Shown: one piece after another, positions 45,065 through 54,097 of the stretch | Position numbering within the stretch: position 1 is the first letter of the stretch | How the letters are laid out: each line of letters starts with the position of its first letter | DNA from: a virus | Reading direction: 5' to 3' (one strand) | IMG/VR virus record: IMGVR_UViG_3300021197_000450 | Span: 1 to 54,097 of that record | Length of the DNA stretch: 54,097 bases | Notes under the pieces: generated by a model | The model's database searches: none | The model's input: only the letters and a program-made list of their open reading frames with translations | Told to the model about the DNA's origin: nothing | Program-made: the position numbers and the translations under genes

Positions 45065-45592
45065 ATGACACTCAGGTTCTTTCATGCAGAAAATAGTGAT
45101 TTAACATATATTCGCACATCTAAATGTGCAGGCATGACGATGCAAAAAACATTTTTGGATATATTTAAATATGAGCGTGTCGTTGCTTATCCCGCAGATA
45201 TGGTATATGCTCAATCAAATTCAACTAAATTTGTTGTTGTGAGAAATCCATGGGATAGACTTGTTAGTCAATATGAGTATTGCAGAAAGCATTACAAAGA
45301 ATATTCGCTAATGTTTTTTGAAGAATGGTTCTTTTTATATGATAAAAGGTTTGTAGTTAACCTTGCAAATAAAACATGCTTAGAAATATCAAATTTTTAT
45401 TTAAAGTTTGAAGATTTGCAAAATGAAGTCAACACAAAACTGCCTAATGGCGAAAAGACAAAGCTATCTCATTTCAATGCATCAGATAGAGAATTCTCAA
45501 GCTATGAACAGTATTATACCTCACAAGAAATGGTTGATACAGTGGCACAACTAAATAAATATATAATCGAACAAATTGGATACGACTTTTAA
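45065..45592 (+). CDS. Sulfotransferase-family protein
   Basis: The 175-residue product carries both PAPS-binding motifs of the sulfotransferase fold: the 5'-phosphosulfate loop YIRTSKCAGMTMQKTF (15-30; usual form .R.PKTAGTS) and the 3'-phosphate block VVVRNPWDRLVSQYEY (57-72). It is shorter than typical Sulfotransfer_2 proteins (about 220 residues). It would move sulfate from PAPS to a sugar or peptide hydroxyl in the cytosol. It lies between gp4 and a virion gene with overlaps or gaps of one base, so it is made late with the particle. Targets could be a virion glycan or a host surface polysaccharide. The fold is clear, the substrate is not. Confidence 0.8.
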   Translation: MTLRFFHAENSDLTYIRTSKCAGMTMQKTFLDIFKYERVVAYPADMVYAQSNSTKFVVVRNPWDRLVSQYEYCRKHYKEYSLMFFEEWFFLYDKRFVVNLANKTCLEISNFYLKFEDLQNEVNTKLPNGEKTKLSHFNASDREFSSYEQYYTSQEMVDTVAQLNKYIIEQIGYDF

Positions 45593-46687: not shown

Positions 46688-46705
46688 TAATGGAGAACTA
46701 ATATA

Positions 46706-47422
46706 ATGGCTTTACCTAAACTTAATGAGTCGATTAAATACACAACTAAAATTCCTTCTACTGGTGAAACAATCAAATACAGACCTTATCTTGTAAAAGA
46801 GGAAAAGGTGTTAATGATTGCTCTTGAGCAGGGTGATGAGCAGGGTTCTCTAGAAGCAATTGCAGATACTCTTGAAGCTTGTATTGAAGAGCCTATCACT
46901 ATTCGCAATCTACCTATCTTTGACATTGAATATTTGTTTACACAGATTAGATCAAAGTCTGTAGGTGAGACTACCAGAATTCAGACGAATTGTAAAGAGT
47001 GTAATACACCAAATGAGATTGCTGTAGATATTTCAAAGATTAATATTAAAGTACCAAAGTCGGCTAATTCAAAGTTAATTAAGCTGTCGAATGAATATAC
47101 TTTAGAAATGAAATATCCTACTTTAAAAGATATTGCACCAAAATTCAATAAATACAAAGAAGGTAATCAAACTGATCAGGCATTTGATATGATTGCTGCA
47201 TGTATTGATGCAGTACAAACAAAAGATGAGCGTATCTCTTTATCTGATGAAAGTCCAGAAGAGGTTACTGCATTTATTGAATCTTTCTCTACTGATCAGT
47301 TTATGAAAGTAAAAGATTTTATTGAGAAGATGCCACGTCTCAAGCATGACGTTGAGTTTCAATGTGGCAGTTGTGATCATGATAATAAATTAACTTTAGA
47401 AGGTACGGCTGATTTTTTTTAG
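46706..47422 (+). CDS. 26: Baseplate hub assembly protein gp26 (0-frame product)
   Basis: The 238-residue product is of the T4 gp26 family (T4_baseplate). The start is MALPKLNESIKYTTKIPSTG, followed by ETIKYRPYLVKEEKVLMIAL. Two CxxC pairs (Cys96/99 in CKECN and Cys220/223 in CGSCDHD) suggest a small zinc ribbon formed by distant parts. In T4 gp26 and gp51 act in assembling the gp27-gp5-gp29 hub. The gene ends with eight T residues directly before the TAG stop and an open -1 frame, so part of the ribosomes may make a longer form. GGAGA lies about nine bases before the ATG. The tape-measure gene follows. Confidence 0.92.
   Translation: MALPKLNESIKYTTKIPSTGETIKYRPYLVKEEKVLMIALEQGDEQGSLEAIADTLEACIEEPITIRNLPIFDIEYLFTQIRSKSVGETTRIQTNCKECNTPNEIAVDISKINIKVPKSANSKLIKLSNEYTLEMKYPTLKDIAPKFNKYKEGNQTDQAFDMIAACIDAVQTKDERISLSDESPEEVTAFIESFSTDQFMKVKDFIEKMPRLKHDVEFQCGSCDHDNKLTLEGTADFF
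47413..47419 (+). other. Slippery heptamer for -1 ribosomal frameshift
   Basis: The zero frame reads GAT TTT TTT TAG, so T-TTT-TTT fits X-XXY-YYZ directly before the gp26 stop (47420-47422). Slipping back one base gives TTA GTA TGT and continues for 61 sense codons to TAA at 47602-47604. Confidence 0.78.
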
Positions 47423-47604
47423 TATGTCTCTCTCATGATAACTTACAAAACCATTATCAAGTCAATTTTCAACTGATGCAACATCATCATTACTCACTAA
47501 CTGAAATTGACTTGATGATGCCTTGGGAGAGAGAAATTTATCTTGCTATGCTATTACAACACCTTGAAGAAGAAGCCGAAAGACAAAAACAGAGAGTAGG
47601 TTAA
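47419..47604 (+). CDS. -1 frame extension of gp26 (gp51-position product)
   Basis: After the slip the frame encodes 61 residues, LVCLSHDNLQNHYQVNFQL followed by 42 more from an internal ATG at 47476 (MQHHHYSLTEIDLMMPWERE, IYLAMLLQHLEEEAERQKQ). The total fused protein would be 299 residues. There is no ribosome-binding site before ATG 47476 and this ATG lies in the loop of a stable hairpin, so independent initiation looks poor. Position between gp26 and gp29 corresponds to gp51 in related phages. The helical, acidic/amphipathic end resembles the T part of lambda G/GT, which binds the tape measure. The extension overlaps gp26 by four bases and stops directly before ATG 47605 (TAAATG). Confidence 0.72.
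   Translation, partial: LVCLSHDNLQNHYQVNFQLMQHHHYSLTEIDLMMPWEREIYLAMLLQHLEEEAERQKQRVG
47452..47520 (+). promoter_or_regulatory. 17-bp RNA hairpin downstream of the frameshift site
   Basis: Bases 47452-47468 (ending CAAGTCAATTT) pair with 47504-47520 (starting AAATTGACTTG). This gives 17 bp with one G-U wobble and a loop of about 35 bases that holds ATG 47476. There is no T-run after it, so it is not a terminator. It starts 31 bases after the gp26 stop. Confidence 0.8.
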
Positions 47605-49317
47605 ATGGCAGCAGCTACACTTAATGACGTAACAAATTCATTATTAATGTTAAATACTGAGCAGGGTAATACGACAGAGGCTGTAAAGTCTCTGGTTAAG
47701 CGTATGCAGGCTATGCTTGACTTTGATAAGCGCAAAGCATTAGATGATGCTGAAGCTGCAAGAGAGGCTAAAAATCAAGCTAGAACACAATCCCAAAGAA
47801 CTTCTGCTCCATCTGTCAGCAGTCCATTTGGTATGGGTGATGCTCTAGTCGCAGGTGCTTTACTAACATTCGCCGCTCTAAATGATCAGATTAGAGGTGT
47901 TATTGATGGCGTACAGGACAATCTTCTAAGTTTTGTTAATGACGTACAGAAGATTATGTTCACTCTGAATCAAGGACTCATTAGACTTCAGAACTTCATT
48001 GATATTAACATCATTTCTAGAATTAGAATGTTAATTCTTGATTTTAGAACAAATCCAAAGCTCACTAATATTTCAACTGTCATAGAAGAATCTTTAGATG
48101 TTCTAAAAGGTATTATTGATAGAACCACTAAAACTATTACTAATACATTTAAAGTTATAGGTAATGCTTTTAGATTTGTTGGCAACGTACTTAGAGTGCC
48201 ACTTGCATTCATAACTAACGGTGTCAGTGAAGCTATTTTTGCAGTAGGAAAATTAAATCCTGTATTCAAATTCTTTAAAGGTATTGGTAGAATATTCAGC
48301 AGACTTTTCTTACCATTGACTATCTTCATTACTGCATGGGACACAATCAAAGGTGCAGTAGATGGTTTTAAAGAGGGTGGTATTATTGGTGGTATTGAAG
48401 GCGCTGTAACAGGCTTCTTTAACTCTTTAATTTTTGCGCCTCTCGATCTTCTGAAAGAAGCTGCGGCATGGGTATTAGAGCAGGTCGGTTTAACAGACAT
48501 AGCTAAAGCTCTTAAACAATTCTCTTTCCAAGAAACATTCGAAGATTTAGTCGGTGCTGTTTTCGGTACACTCACAGGTGCGGTAAATTGGATTAAAACA
48601 GTATTTACAGACCCAAAAGAAGCATTGAAACAGCTTTGGCAAGGTTTAGTAGGTGAAGGTGGTCTGATTGATATTATTTACGCACCATTAAACGCAGCAG
48701 TAAACTTCATTAGACGTATTTTTAATCTTGGTGATCCTGATCAACCATTTAGAATGGGCGCATTTATCGAAGGACTCATCACACAGACTGTTGATATCTT
48801 CGCACAAATCTTCAATAAATTTATGAATATGCTTCGATCTATTCCTGTTGTTAAAGACTTCTTTAAAACAGAAGAAGAAAAGGCTTTTGAAGAAAGAAAG
48901 GTTCGCCTTCAAGAAGAAATTCAAGAACAAGAACGTTTTTTGCGTATGCTTGAAAATGATGCAAAATCTGTTCAGACATTTATCAGAAGCGCAGGTGATC
49001 CTGAAGTATTGGGCATCAGAGGACTGGGAAAGACGCCTGAGCAAAAAGAAGCACTAAGAGCAGCAGCGAGACAGAGACTTCAAGCCCGTGAAGATGCATT
49101 AGTAACTCTTGGTTCTGACAGAAGACTTATTGAAATGGCAAGAACACAAACTGCACAGAGATTAGGATTAGCAGAGCAAAATTTATCTGCAATGCAGTCT
49201 ACAACCAGTAATACAGTTGTCGATAACTCTACTGTAGCACCAAACACTACAACGGTAAACAATCAAATGGCTGTACCTACACCAGCGGTAGAAACCGAAA
49301 GGTTTTCATTAGATTAA
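47605..49317 (+). CDS. 29: Baseplate hub / tape-measure protein gp29-like
   Basis: The 570-residue product (T4 gp29: 590) has the expected composition of a tape measure. It has an N-terminal helix with heptads (AVKSLVKRMQAMLDFDKRKA), a long helical region with hydrophobic stretches around 80-125 and 190-300 (FKEGGIIGGIEGAVTGFFNS), then a coiled coil (EEEKAFEERKVRLQEEIQEQ, about 425-450) and a disordered Thr/Asn-rich C-terminus. gp29 fixes tail length and occupies the tube interior. It follows directly on gp26 and its frameshift extension, its probable chaperones. AGG lies just before ATG 47605 and the gene is closed by a bidirectional terminator. Confidence 0.85.
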   Translation: MAAATLNDVTNSLLMLNTEQGNTTEAVKSLVKRMQAMLDFDKRKALDDAEAAREAKNQARTQSQRTSAPSVSSPFGMGDALVAGALLTFAALNDQIRGVIDGVQDNLLSFVNDVQKIMFTLNQGLIRLQNFIDINIISRIRMLILDFRTNPKLTNISTVIEESLDVLKGIIDRTTKTITNTFKVIGNAFRFVGNVLRVPLAFITNGVSEAIFAVGKLNPVFKFFKGIGRIFSRLFLPLTIFITAWDTIKGAVDGFKEGGIIGGIEGAVTGFFNSLIFAPLDLLKEAAAWVLEQVGLTDIAKALKQFSFQETFEDLVGAVFGTLTGAVNWIKTVFTDPKEALKQLWQGLVGEGGLIDIIYAPLNAAVNFIRRIFNLGDPDQPFRMGAFIEGLITQTVDIFAQIFNKFMNMLRSIPVVKDFFKTEEEKAFEERKVRLQEEIQEQERFLRMLENDAKSVQTFIRSAGDPEVLGIRGLGKTPEQKEALRAAARQRLQAREDALVTLGSDRRLIEMARTQTAQRLGLAEQNLSAMQSTTSNTVVDNSTVAPNTTTVNNQMAVPTPAVETERFSLD

Positions 49318-50807: not shown

Positions 50808-51047
50808 TCATAATGGCAATTTATTTACCTTTTCTAGATAGTTAAGCTCTCTGGCTTCATATTCGATCTTATCTTTGATGCTCATATTTAGTAGAGAGTT
50901 AGTTTCATCAGGTTCGATTGAATTGCTCTTGCACACTTCTAAAACGGCATCCATATATGAATGATTCTTTTCGTGTACATACTGCTCAACTAAAACACAA
51001 AACTTTTCTTTTGTCAAGATTTTATCACTAATCATTTCACATCTCAT
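50808..51047 (-). CDS. 33: Late promoter coactivator gp33
   Basis: The 79-residue product resembles gp33 of marine T4-like phages: a helical protein with YMDAVLEVCKSNSIEPDETN, SLLNMSIKDKIEYEARELNY and C-terminal LEKVNKLPL. gp33 binds the host RNA polymerase flap and the sliding clamp gp45 and couples late transcription to replication. T4 also codes it near gp32, which supports the call. ATGs at 51047 and 51035 are both possible. Its presence fits the many TATAAATA motifs in the window; gp55 and gp45 are not here. Confidence 0.75.
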   Translation of the reverse strand: MRCEMISDKILTKEKFCVLVEQYVHEKNHSYMDAVLEVCKSNSIEPDETNSLLNMSIKDKIEYEARELNYLEKVNKLPL

Positions 51048-51876
51048 TCATTCTAATTAAATTCATATAGTCTTCTCTGGCATCACCTGTAACTGGCGAT
51101 CTACGATTACAAGTCTGACATGCAGGAAGACCTTTTCTTGAATTCTCACAGAAATGTTTTTTTCTGTAACCATTTAAATTCTCATTATAATTAATAAACT
51201 CTTCAATGTTTTCTTCAAAGATGTTACCTAGTATAAGAGGATTCCAGTCATCACAGCATAGATTATAATTACCATTCCAGTCAATATACATATTATACAC
51301 TAATTTAGCACATGCATTATCCTCAAATTCATCAAAAGTATTTTCGCCTAGAAATCCAGCACGATTTGTCATTCCCTCTTTGCTACCTGTAAGTCCCCTG
51401 CGAACACTCTTGCCTTTTGTAAATTGATCAAAATTTAATCCATAGTCAGGTTTTCTGATCAATCGAATATTAGAATATTCATTATACTTTTCAATAATGC
51501 GATTGGCTTCAGATTCATCAGGTGTGTATATATCATATGAAAAACGAACCCTAGCATCGTTAAAAAACTTTTTTAAGTCATCTATTTTCTTACCATTTGT
51601 CGTGACTTGCACTCGATAGTTGGGTTCATTTTCTAAAAAAATATCTAAAATTTCATCAAAGTTTTTTGTGAGCGTAGGTTCACCTCGCCCAGCAAAAATA
51701 ACTTTGCCTTTAAAATGTAAATTGTCTAGTTGGTTCTTAATTTCTCTGGCAGTGTCAAGTGACATATGTAGATTCTGATTAGGATAACCATGTGCCCTTG
51801 GGCAGAAACTGCACTGTAGATTGCACAATTCTGTTGGATTAATCTCTATGTACTTGACAAAGTTAAAGTAGTTCAT
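51037..51876 (-). CDS. Radical SAM protein with SPASM-like C-terminus
   Basis: The 279-residue product has the CxxxCxxC cluster motif in LCNLQCSFCPRA (Cys18, 22, 25) for a [4Fe-4S] cluster that cleaves S-adenosylmethionine. GRGEPTL stands for the SAM-binding GGEP motif, VTTNG follows. The C-terminal part (NLCCDDWNPLILGNIFEE, HFCENSRKGLPACQTCNRR) is rich in Cys like SPASM/twitch domains that bind auxiliary clusters. Such enzymes mature peptides or modify sugars. The start is ATG 51876, overlapping the stop of a Tyr-rich 62-residue protein as TAATG. A glycosyltransferase and GMP reductase gene lie in the same operon. No substrate can be assigned. Confidence 0.85.
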   Translation of the reverse strand: MNYFNFVKYIEINPTELCNLQCSFCPRAHGYPNQNLHMSLDTAREIKNQLDNLHFKGKVIFAGRGEPTLTKNFDEILDIFLENEPNYRVQVTTNGKKIDDLKKFFNDARVRFSYDIYTPDESEANRIIEKYNEYSNIRLIRKPDYGLNFDQFTKGKSVRRGLTGSKEGMTNRAGFLGENTFDEFEDNACAKLVYNMYIDWNGNYNLCCDDWNPLILGNIFEENIEEFINYNENLNGYRKKHFCENSRKGLPACQTCNRRSPVTGDAREDYMNLIRMNEM

Positions 51877-52064
51877 TAATACCAATCACTTGCTAATTTT
51901 CGATCATCAAGGTACTCGGAGTACCCGTCAAGATTACTTTTAATTTCATTCATATCATAATAGTTAATATACTCTTCATCATATGTAGCCTGTGATTCCA
52001 TTCGACAAAGTGCTTTAAACTGCTTTTTTTGCTTTGTGTTGTTCAGGCGTGCCTTCAAAGACAT
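51876..52064 (-). CDS. Small Tyr-rich protein upstream of radical SAM gene
   Basis: The 62-residue product starts MSLKARLNNTKQKKQFKALC (from ATG 52064; ATG 52076 gives four more residues). The N-terminal half is basic, the C-terminal half acidic with seven Tyr, ending KLASDWY. No known family. It overlaps the glycosyltransferase gene by about ten bases and the radical SAM gene by one. It might be an ordinary small phage protein, or a peptide substrate of the neighbouring enzyme; the latter is speculation. Confidence 0.6.
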   Translation of the reverse strand: MSLKARLNNTKQKKQFKALCRMESQATYDEEYINYYDMNEIKSNLDGYSEYLDDRKLASDWY

Positions 52065-52693
52065 ATTTTTTTCCATTCAAATGTTATAATATCGTGCTTA
52101 TGCCAATCTAATGGATTATCCGAGATTGTCAATGATTTTTCAAACTGTTTATACTCAATTATTTGATCAGGTATGTGTGTATAGTTTTTCTGCACTACAG
52201 CTTTGCCTGCTCGTAGTTCCATACCCGAGAAGACTTTCATTAGTTTATTCTCTAAATGAAAGTCTCCCCATCTTATACCATTAAATCTTTCATCATATCC
52301 ACCAACCATAAGAAAGTATTTTACAGGAATAGTGTATTGATTTTCAGCAATCTTTACATATTCATTTTCTTCATAGTCGATAGTTTCTTGGATACGTTCT
52401 AATGCAAAGGGCAAAAAGACGTGATCCAAATCTAAAAAAGTTGCCCATTCTGTTTTACACATTACAGCAGCTAAGTTTCTAGCTGCATGAGAGTTAAAGC
52501 CAACATCCTCTTTGAGTCGATACAGAGTTATATTCTCTGTATCAAACTCTTGTAACACATCTTTTGCTGGGTATTTTTGAGAAGCATCATCAACTACAAT
52601 TAAATTACTGAAGTAGTCTCTGTTGAAATTATTCTCAATAAAGATTTGTAAGTATCCTGGATTATCATAGTATGTTGTAATTAATGTGTTCAT
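52055..52693 (-). CDS. Glycosyltransferase family 2-like protein
   Basis: The 212-residue product has a GT-A fold of the GT2 kind. The N-terminal strand is NTLITTYYDNPGYLQIFIEN, LIVVDDAS holds the nucleotide-binding Asp pair, RNLAA follows, TFLDLDHVFL holds the metal-binding DxD-like motif (about 88-91), and GGYDERFNGIRWGDFHLENK is the acceptor-side GGyDE..g...ED block. Donor sugar and acceptor are unknown. It overlaps GMP reductase as ATGA and the small Tyr-rich gene by about ten bases. It is probably soluble, without transmembrane helix. Confidence 0.8.
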   Translation of the reverse strand: MNTLITTYYDNPGYLQIFIENNFNRDYFSNLIVVDDASQKYPAKDVLQEFDTENITLYRLKEDVGFNSHAARNLAAVMCKTEWATFLDLDHVFLPFALERIQETIDYEENEYVKIAENQYTIPVKYFLMVGGYDERFNGIRWGDFHLENKLMKVFSGMELRAGKAVVQKNYTHIPDQIIEYKQFEKSLTISDNPLDWHKHDIITFEWKKICL

Positions 52694-53895
52694 TCATTTC
52701 CAAAAACAGTGTTGACTTGATTATTAACTAGAACAAATTTAGCATTTCTTTGAATTTTAGTTAACTTTATTACATTGACATATGTACATGCCGATCTAAT
52801 ACCACCTAACAAATCATCAATAGTATTTTGAAGAGGGCCTTTATATTTTACTAAAACTTCTTTTCCTTCTGCCGCACGATAGTTTTTTAAACCACCGCTG
52901 TGCTTTTCATTTGCAGTTAAGGAAGACATGCCATAAAATTTTACAAACTTATTTTCATCAATAATAGGCACCCAGCCATTTCCTTCAGGATGCTGCATGA
53001 CTTCACTACTCTGCTCATATTTTGTGATAATCTCGCCTCCGCCCTCATCATGTCCAGCAAGCATACCTCCAAGCATAACAAAATCTGCACCAGCAACGAA
53101 AGCTTTTGCTACATCACCAGGATTAGTGCAGCCTCCATCAGCACATACATACATTCTTCGTTTGTTTGTCAATACTCGTTTGTTAATTTTTTCAGCTTCT
53201 TCGGCAACTTCTAAGATTGTAGACAGTTGAGGATAGCCAATTCCTGATTTTATTCTTGTTGTGCAAACACTACCAGGTCCAATTCCAACTTTGATACAGT
53301 TTGCACCTGCATAGAAAAGATCAGCGGCGATTCCTGAAGTTACAACATTTCCAACCATAATAAATGTTGAATCACCACACAAATCTCTGACTTGGCGCAC
53401 AAAATCAGTAACTCTTTTTAAATAACCATTTGGAGTATCAATACAAATTTTGTTAAATTTTTCTTTATGTTGTCGCACTCTTTCTAAGTCATCCGCAGAA
53501 ATGCCAACAGTCAAGAAATAGTTAGAAGCGTCTTCAATCTTATCCAATTTTTCATCAGAATATGATTTGTTAATTGCTGTCAACATATTATTCTTAGCCA
53601 TACGCTCGGCAACTTCAAGAGTGCCGACGCCATCCATGTTTGCTGCAATGATAGGTACACAAGTAAAAGAGTTTTCCGTGATGTCCTTACCGTAGGGTTT
53701 ACCTGTATTTTCGTCCACAAACTTCTCAAATGCGGTCGCTGTTGTAAAAGGAACTTCAAGTTTAACATTTTGTCTGGACAAAACGTCTGCTGCATTTCGC
53801 TTGTCTCTAAATTTCCCAGCCTCTTCTCCTTCAGACGGTACAATTAAAACATCAGAGAAGTCTAGCTTAATTTCATTAGAGAGAAATTTTTTCAT
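52690..53895 (-). CDS. guaC: GMP reductase
   Basis: The 401-residue product is of the IMP dehydrogenase/GMP reductase family. KVGIGPGSVCTTRIKSGIGY holds the catalytic Cys211, then CADGGCTNPGDVAKAF, ADFVMLGGMLAGHDEGGGEI and FYGMSS. The C-terminal LQNTIDDLLGGIRSACTYVN and VLVNNQVNTVFGN follow the E. coli GuaC end (ENTARDILGGLRSACTYVG, ENRIFNN), which separates it from IMP dehydrogenase. There is no CBS domain. GMP reductase converts GMP with NADPH to IMP and ammonia. The start is ATG 53895 after AAGGA. Compared with E. coli GuaC (347 residues) it has an insert around residues 55-75. It overlaps the upstream oxygenase-like gene by 20 bases. Confidence 0.92.
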   Translation of the reverse strand: MKKFLSNEIKLDFSDVLIVPSEGEEAGKFRDKRNAADVLSRQNVKLEVPFTTATAFEKFVDENTGKPYGKDITENSFTCVPIIAANMDGVGTLEVAERMAKNNMLTAINKSYSDEKLDKIEDASNYFLTVGISADDLERVRQHKEKFNKICIDTPNGYLKRVTDFVRQVRDLCGDSTFIMVGNVVTSGIAADLFYAGANCIKVGIGPGSVCTTRIKSGIGYPQLSTILEVAEEAEKINKRVLTNKRRMYVCADGGCTNPGDVAKAFVAGADFVMLGGMLAGHDEGGGEIITKYEQSSEVMQHPEGNGWVPIIDENKFVKFYGMSSLTANEKHSGGLKNYRAAEGKEVLVKYKGPLQNTIDDLLGGIRSACTYVNVIKLTKIQRNAKFVLVNNQVNTVFGNE

Positions 53896-54097
53896 TTTGA
53901 GGGTTCCTTTTTGTCGCATCAAATTCAAAAGTAATAGCATCATATTTAGACTCTTTGAAACAGCAATGTCTGTGATATAAATTATCCACAAAAATCAAAA
54001 GTTCATTTGGCTCAGGATAATATTCTATAATTTCTCCTGGTCGATTTTCTATTTGAATTAAATTTACTTTTGGGTCCGTTTTTAGATAATATATACC
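53876..54097 (-). CDS. C-terminal part of a 2OG oxygenase-like protein (start beyond right edge)
   Basis: The frame is open from the right edge to TAA at 53876-53878 and codes 73 residues. PNELLIFVDNLYHRHCCFKE followed by SKYDAITFEF looks like the end of a double-stranded beta-helix oxygenase: a turn 'P..N.LLIF', a distal metal His and a final strand with a basic residue. GIYYLKTDPKVNLIQIENRP upstream would be the preceding strands. The HxD motif would be beyond the edge, so the call is tentative. It overlaps GMP reductase by 20 bases in another frame. Confidence 0.6.
   Translation of the reverse strand, partial: GIYYLKTDPKVNLIQIENRPGEIIEYYPEPNELLIFVDNLYHRHCCFKESKYDAITFEFDATKRNPQNEKISL

Follow-up and report, generated by a model that had tools for sequence, protein, structure and literature searches.

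The question raised by this locus is whether gp26 of a T4-like virus, with a reading frame that ends on a run of T residues, is followed by a second gene, or is joined with an open -1 frame into one gene that yields a short and a long product. We addressed it in the window, i.e., the whole 54,097-nucleotide stretch of IMG/VR virus record IMGVR_UViG_3300021197_000450, where the gp26 open reading frame (46706-47422, + strand, 238 aa) ends with the codons GAT TTT TTT TAG. A previous reading of the letters alone (the sequence-only reading) had placed a slippery heptamer directly on this stop codon and, behind it, a -1 frame open for 61 codons up to a TAA that touches the start of gp29; the sequence confirms both. 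The answer that we reach is that, very probably, a programmed -1 frameshift makes the short and the long form of a T4-like tail assembly chaperone from one gene. The junction consists of the following features:

46693-46708, + strand: GGAG ribosome-binding-like site directly 5' of the gp26 ATG, together with this ATG (sequence read)
46706-47422, + strand: gp26, putative short form TAC-N (PF12322, E=1.6e-61; phrog_150 positions 5-232, E=4.7e-64; AlphaFold mean pLDDT 90.4)
47413-47419, + strand: slippery heptamer T TTT TTT (U UUU UUU) (sequence read; U UUU UUN in 254 of 256 loci)
47420-47422, + strand: zero-frame stop codon TAG of gp26, directly 3' of the heptamer (sequence read)
47419-47604, + strand: -1 frame extension (putative TAC-C, gp51-like), 61 codons and TAA (phrog_634, E=6.6e-27; pN/pS 0.26; helical model, pLDDT 84.6)
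46706-47604, + strand: predicted frameshift fusion TAC-NC (gp26-gp51), 238 + 61 = 299 aa (from layout, homology, conservation and selection)
47605-49317, + strand: tape-measure-like protein in the gp29 position, 570 aa (phrog_1272 and phrog_4200, 'tail length tape measure', E of 5e-8 and 1e-7)

By its profile matches, gp26 is a full-length member of the PF12322 T4_baseplate/phrog_150 family (208 bits for PF12322, with a cut-off of 24.5; residues 11-238 on positions 3-218 of the 219-position profile). With the last T of the heptamer re-read in the -1 frame, the extension is translated as LVCLSHDNLQNHYQVNFQLMQHHHYSLTEIDLMMPWEREIYLAMLLQHLEEEAERQKQRVG, 61 residues, up to the TAA at 47602-47604, which abuts the ATG at 47605 of the next gene. 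The tape-measure profile matches of that gene are weak but consistent, and the gp26/extension gene directly upstream of it is in the position of a tail assembly chaperone. The likeness to the lambda G/GT layout that was suggested from the letters alone gains support from the conservation, selection, RNA structure and T4 gp26/gp51 paralogy described below.

The surrounding region contains several other genes of note. A sulfotransferase-like gene (45065-45592; PF03567, E=5e-6) lies between a TnsA-like gene, which is probably the gp4 head completion gene, and the gene for gp2 (DNA end protector); a structural operon is an unusual place for an auxiliary gene. A gene for a radical SAM protein with a SPASM domain (51037-51885) is close to a glycosyltransferase gene, and a gene of the IMP dehydrogenase/GMP reductase family (52690-53991; PF00478, E=1e-57) is near the contig end.

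Using 240 IMG/VR loci gathered with three gp26 queries, and the phage records of an annotated collection, we compared the junction across 256 loci in total. An in-frame U UUU UUN heptamer is present at the 3' end of gp26, 0-9 codons before the zero-frame stop, in 254 of them (UUUUUUC in 163, UUUUUUU in 58, UUUUUUA in 31 and UUUUUUG in 2), and each of the 254 has a homologous -1 extension after the heptamer, 52-69 codons long where complete. Thus, an in-frame heptamer of the X XXY YYZ type is kept at the frame junction, as is characteristic of programmed -1 frameshifting. The same heptamer and extension are found in Pelagibacter phage Mosig, Melnitz, P-SSM2, the KVP40-like phi-pp2, Aeromonas Ah1, Sinorhizobium phiM12, Rhizobium RL2RES and Stenotrophomonas BUCT608. 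The codon ahead of the first TTT of the heptamer varies (Asp, Ser, Asn or Ala), but its last base is T throughout. Over 119 clusters at 85% identity, the synonymous choices alone have a summed chance of log10 ~-34, a value that is indicative and not a strict p-value because the clusters are related. Judged by the recurrence of both heptamer and extension in 254 of the 256 loci, the junction signal is far beyond chance, which is excluded as its source, and the slip signal is real and ancient. The canonical heptamer is absent only in two distant relatives, in both of which the extension is still in the -1 frame: in CBA120 (L251:2501-3307) gp26 ends GAG ATT TTC ATT TAA, and in Vibrio phage K413 (L253:2342-3082) it ends TCA CTT TTC AAG TAA. 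In these two, only a slip of one tRNA on TTTTC seems possible.

The alternative that survives best, although we consider it quite improbable, is that the extension constitutes a small separate gene (gp51), with translation by re-initiation or from a start of its own, in line with the separate gp51 ORFs annotated in public records (P-SSM2, S-PM2, Mosig and others). In the window, a TGA lies in the -1 frame immediately 5' of the T run, and therefore no initiation is possible upstream in that frame. The first ATG, GTG or TTG of the extension is the ATG at 47476, i.e., codon 20, which is inside the conserved domain, and no Shine-Dalgarno sequence before it was seen by eye; the previous statement that the extension has no ribosome-binding site of its own agrees with this. 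The same location of the first start is typical of most of the clade of the window. Of the 119 clusters, 57 have the first extension ATG at codon 20, and 65 contain no ATG, GTG or TTG either 5' of the slip in the -1 frame or within extension codons 1-10. At the loci without any start in extension codons 1-18, pN/pS is 0.26 for these codons, compared to 0.23 for the C-terminal region of gp26 and to 1.0 and 1.6 for the other two frames over the same codons. These values are indicative of purifying protein-coding selection on residues that can be reached only by a frame change, i.e., of a -1 frame under coding selection without its own start. In favour of the independent-gene explanation, P-SSM2-type cyanophages have an ATG at extension codon 4 in ~30 clusters; however, the slippery heptamer is retained there as well. 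As contrary evidence, the sequence-only reading had named relatives in which gp51 has a separate start and the slippery run is missing; none was found in this lineage.

The homology of the extension leads to T4. The extension matches phrog_634, annotated 'baseplate hub assembly catalyst' (gp51), and also the C-terminal part of phrog_150, the first 232 positions of which correspond to gp26. The presence of both within phrog_150 pointed to natural fusions, of which T4 supplies one. In T4, the genes for gp26 (208 aa) and gp51 (249 aa) are separate and divergently oriented, and PF12322 is matched by both proteins, whereas the phrog_634 C-terminus is found in T4 gp51 only. A marine-extension profile aligns to residues 208-244 of T4 gp51 (E=8.7e-5), compared to no match with T4 gp26 (E=0.48). 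Since both T4 proteins belong to PF12322 and only gp51 has the phrog_634 C-terminus, T4 gp51 is, on the evidence of these matches, a paralogue of gp26 to which the extension is fused in frame. The proposal that gp26 and gp51 form one chaperone system is supported by this paralogy. At the sequence level, the locus combines a short form with a long form that has an added C-terminal domain, which is the relationship of TAC-N to TAC-NC.

Structure prediction produced a confident model of gp26 (pLDDT 90.4) and modelled the extension as a helical unit (pLDDT 84.6). Foldseek returned no significant PDB match for the gp26 model; the top-probability rows were 3fgx (0.60) and the HK97 tail assembly chaperone 2ob9 (0.54, E=0.46), both with poor E-values, and the likeness to 2ob9 is suggestive only. 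Among the viral structure matches with E<=0.001 that carry names, most are gp26 or baseplate-hub proteins. Sequence searches found no solved relatives of gp26 or of the extension, and no NCBIfam family was found. The gp26 model (46706-47419) apparently contains twice a unit made up of strands, helices and a ribbon of two strands, an appearance that suggests a possible internal duplication.

Downstream of the slip site, three RNA features were identified in the window:

47427-47435, + strand: 5' arm of a long-range RNA stem, starting 7 nt after the heptamer, TCTCTCTCA (stem search, arm shuffle, covariation)
47524-47532, + strand: 3' arm of the long-range RNA stem, TGGGAGAGA, codons for PWERE (stem search, arm shuffle, covariation)
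47452-47520, + strand: inner hairpin of 18 bp (47452-47469 pairing with 47503-47520), predicted for this sequence (MFE fold)

The RNA of the window itself has an MFE of -35 kcal/mol for 47411-47560 (z=-4.3). For the 119 clusters, we compared the 126 nt downstream of the slip site to folding controls that keep the encoded protein. The downstream RNA was more stable than these controls in 118 of the 119 clusters, with a mean folding z of -2.56 for the extension versus -0.5 to -0.9 in four gp26 windows; the encoded protein alone does not account for the degree of structure in the RNA 3' of the slip site. RNAalifold found no single consensus structure over 66 aligned loci, and the long-range stem is therefore not universal; for the same reason, we relied on the stem test and on codon-preserving controls instead. 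In the clade of the window and in the Mosig clade, the stem forms between the LSH codons and the PWERE codons ~95 nt on and, in most loci, starts ~5-8 nt after the heptamer; most of the P-SSM2 clade lacks it. The 10-pair stem is 85.5% paired, compared to 81.5±0.5 in shuffled and 46-68% in slid controls; shuffling of the arms gave 582±3.7 versus 607 observed (0/2000); and the number of double-change cells is 34 versus 15.3±3.1 expected (0/500 shuffles), mostly between third codon positions of the two arms. Thus, the lineage of the window has a covarying stem and structure beyond coding expectation, as would be anticipated for a stimulatory element, without a single RNAalifold consensus. An alignment of 22 loci chosen by eye for pairing was circular and was left out of the evidence, and an MFE-based count of the first helix at 3-10 nt did not discriminate in all clades. 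Rfam contains no known RNA element for this region. The inner hairpin, predicted in this sequence, sits inside the long-range stem.

Upstream of the slip site, the window contains one further feature:

47399-47404, + strand: weak SD-like GAAGG in Glu-Gly codons (no stronger than synonymous expectation here)

The clades differ in this element. It is above synonymous expectation in the P-SSM2 clade (p=2e-7) and not in the clade of the window (p=0.12). In the P-SSM2 clade, the 3' end of a GGAGG-like element lies 8-10 nt ahead of the heptamer, and this element is strong in 20 of 41 clusters, compared to 0.7% of control windows. The SD-like element and the stem tend to be alternatives (Fisher p=0.03, uncorrected for relatedness). 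One reading of this distribution, which we regard as evenly balanced between right and wrong, is that marine T4-like phages keep the slip site and the long/short chaperone and exchange the stimulators between lineages, with an upstream SD-like element in P-SSM2-type cyanophages and a long-range stem between coding segments ~100 nt apart in pelagiphage-like lineages, while in T4 two separate genes replace the whole signal. Such phages would provide a natural series in which one recoding event has different stimulators or gives way to two separate genes.

A change of frame could also result from transcriptional slippage on the T run, which we judge slightly less likely still than an independent gene. 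The window has 8 consecutive T residues, and transcriptional slippage could contribute in part in this particular sequence. Nevertheless, the commonest heptamer, T TTT TTC (163 of 254 loci), has just six consecutive T residues, the heptamer invariably has the X XXY YYZ phase relative to the zero-frame codons, and both the upstream SD-like and the downstream RNA elements point to the ribosome. That a sequencing or assembly indel split one in-frame gene at an error-prone homopolymer is, from the comparison with relatives, so unlikely as to be negligible, as the same frame relation is found with four different heptamers in 254 loci, finished phage genomes included.

The programmed -1 frameshift, called probable in the sequence-only reading, is supported by conservation, selection and RNA structure alike. 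In the mechanism that we propose, the majority of ribosomes would terminate at the TAG at 47420 and yield gp26, the short form (TAC-N). A minority would slip back by one base on U UUU UUU (47413-47419), helped by the RNA stem 7 nt beyond the heptamer, and would read 61 further codons to produce the 299-aa gp26-gp51 fusion, the long form (TAC-NC). Both forms would act as chaperones on the tape-measure protein of the next gene, with the shared part as its coat and the C-terminal part as the recruiter of tube or baseplate components, a division of labour like that of lambda G/GT. The layout, heptamer, conservation, -1 selection, RNA signal and gp51 homology are read from sequence, and it is from these that we infer the slippage, its rate, the chaperone function and the partners.

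These results indicate that nearly all of the sampled ocean T4-like viruses have a frameshifted tail chaperone. In the public records that we inspected, the locus is annotated as two genes or the second frame is omitted, and none of them has the joined gp26-extension gene. T4 gp51 gains a concrete, testable role, that of a long-form chaperone.

Vladimirov, Gautam and Davidson (Virology 2022, 566:9-15, doi 10.1016/j.virol.2021.11.003) are said to have identified gp26/gp51 as the tail assembly chaperones of T4-like phages, and the abstract of this paper reportedly states that several T4-like groups appear to conserve frameshifting and that genes 26 and 51 are used in T4. The passages that cite it concern poly-T slippery sites in T4-like TAC-N genes (PMC12846349, the phage Adele paper) and T4-like phages in which the short form and the fused long form have separate genes (PMC10885494, PRFect); both agree with this abstract. 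On the strength of these citing passages, the view of the sequence-only reading that the feature was undescribed for T4-type gp26 is superseded, and the short/long frameshift arrangement is of a known kind, having already been proposed in 2022 for the T4-like phages. An earlier review considered G-T frameshifting conserved in long-tailed phages except T4 (Atkins review, PMC5009743), and T4 gp51 was listed in a 2010 review as essential and of unknown function (PMC3004832). We found no paper that pairs a frameshift with the cyanophage baseplate hub. Possible novelties are the lineage, the extent to which the signal is conserved and the stimulators that are specific to single lineages.

The dnaX-type -1 frameshift cassette consists of an SD-like stimulator, a heptamer and a downstream hairpin. 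The present loci have the same SD-like element 8-10 nt upstream (P-SSM2 clade), a heptamer and a stem after a 5-8 nt spacer; however, no clamp-loader gene is involved, and the stimulators differ between lineages. In lambda, the slip heptamer is G GGA AAG, whereas it is U UUU UUN here, in a contractile-tailed, T4-like phage, and the two systems are likened by layout. Lambda G/GT has the same short form and -1 frameshifted long form directly before the tape measure, and neither product is in the virion (PMC5009743). The TACs of Pakpunavirus/Vandenendeviridae and Andersonviridae likewise undergo a -1 frameshift at poly-T, from TAC-N into an unannotated downstream frame, but in different phage families and with a GTTTTT slip site (PMC12846349). 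The closest counterpart is the T4-like TAC pair of gp26 (TAC-N) and gp51 (TAC-NC), with the same family, the same short/long logic and, in the passage of PMC12846349 that treats it, a poly-T -1 slip site. T4 gp51 carries the same C-terminal domain, but T4 has two divergent genes where the virus studied here has one gene with a slip.
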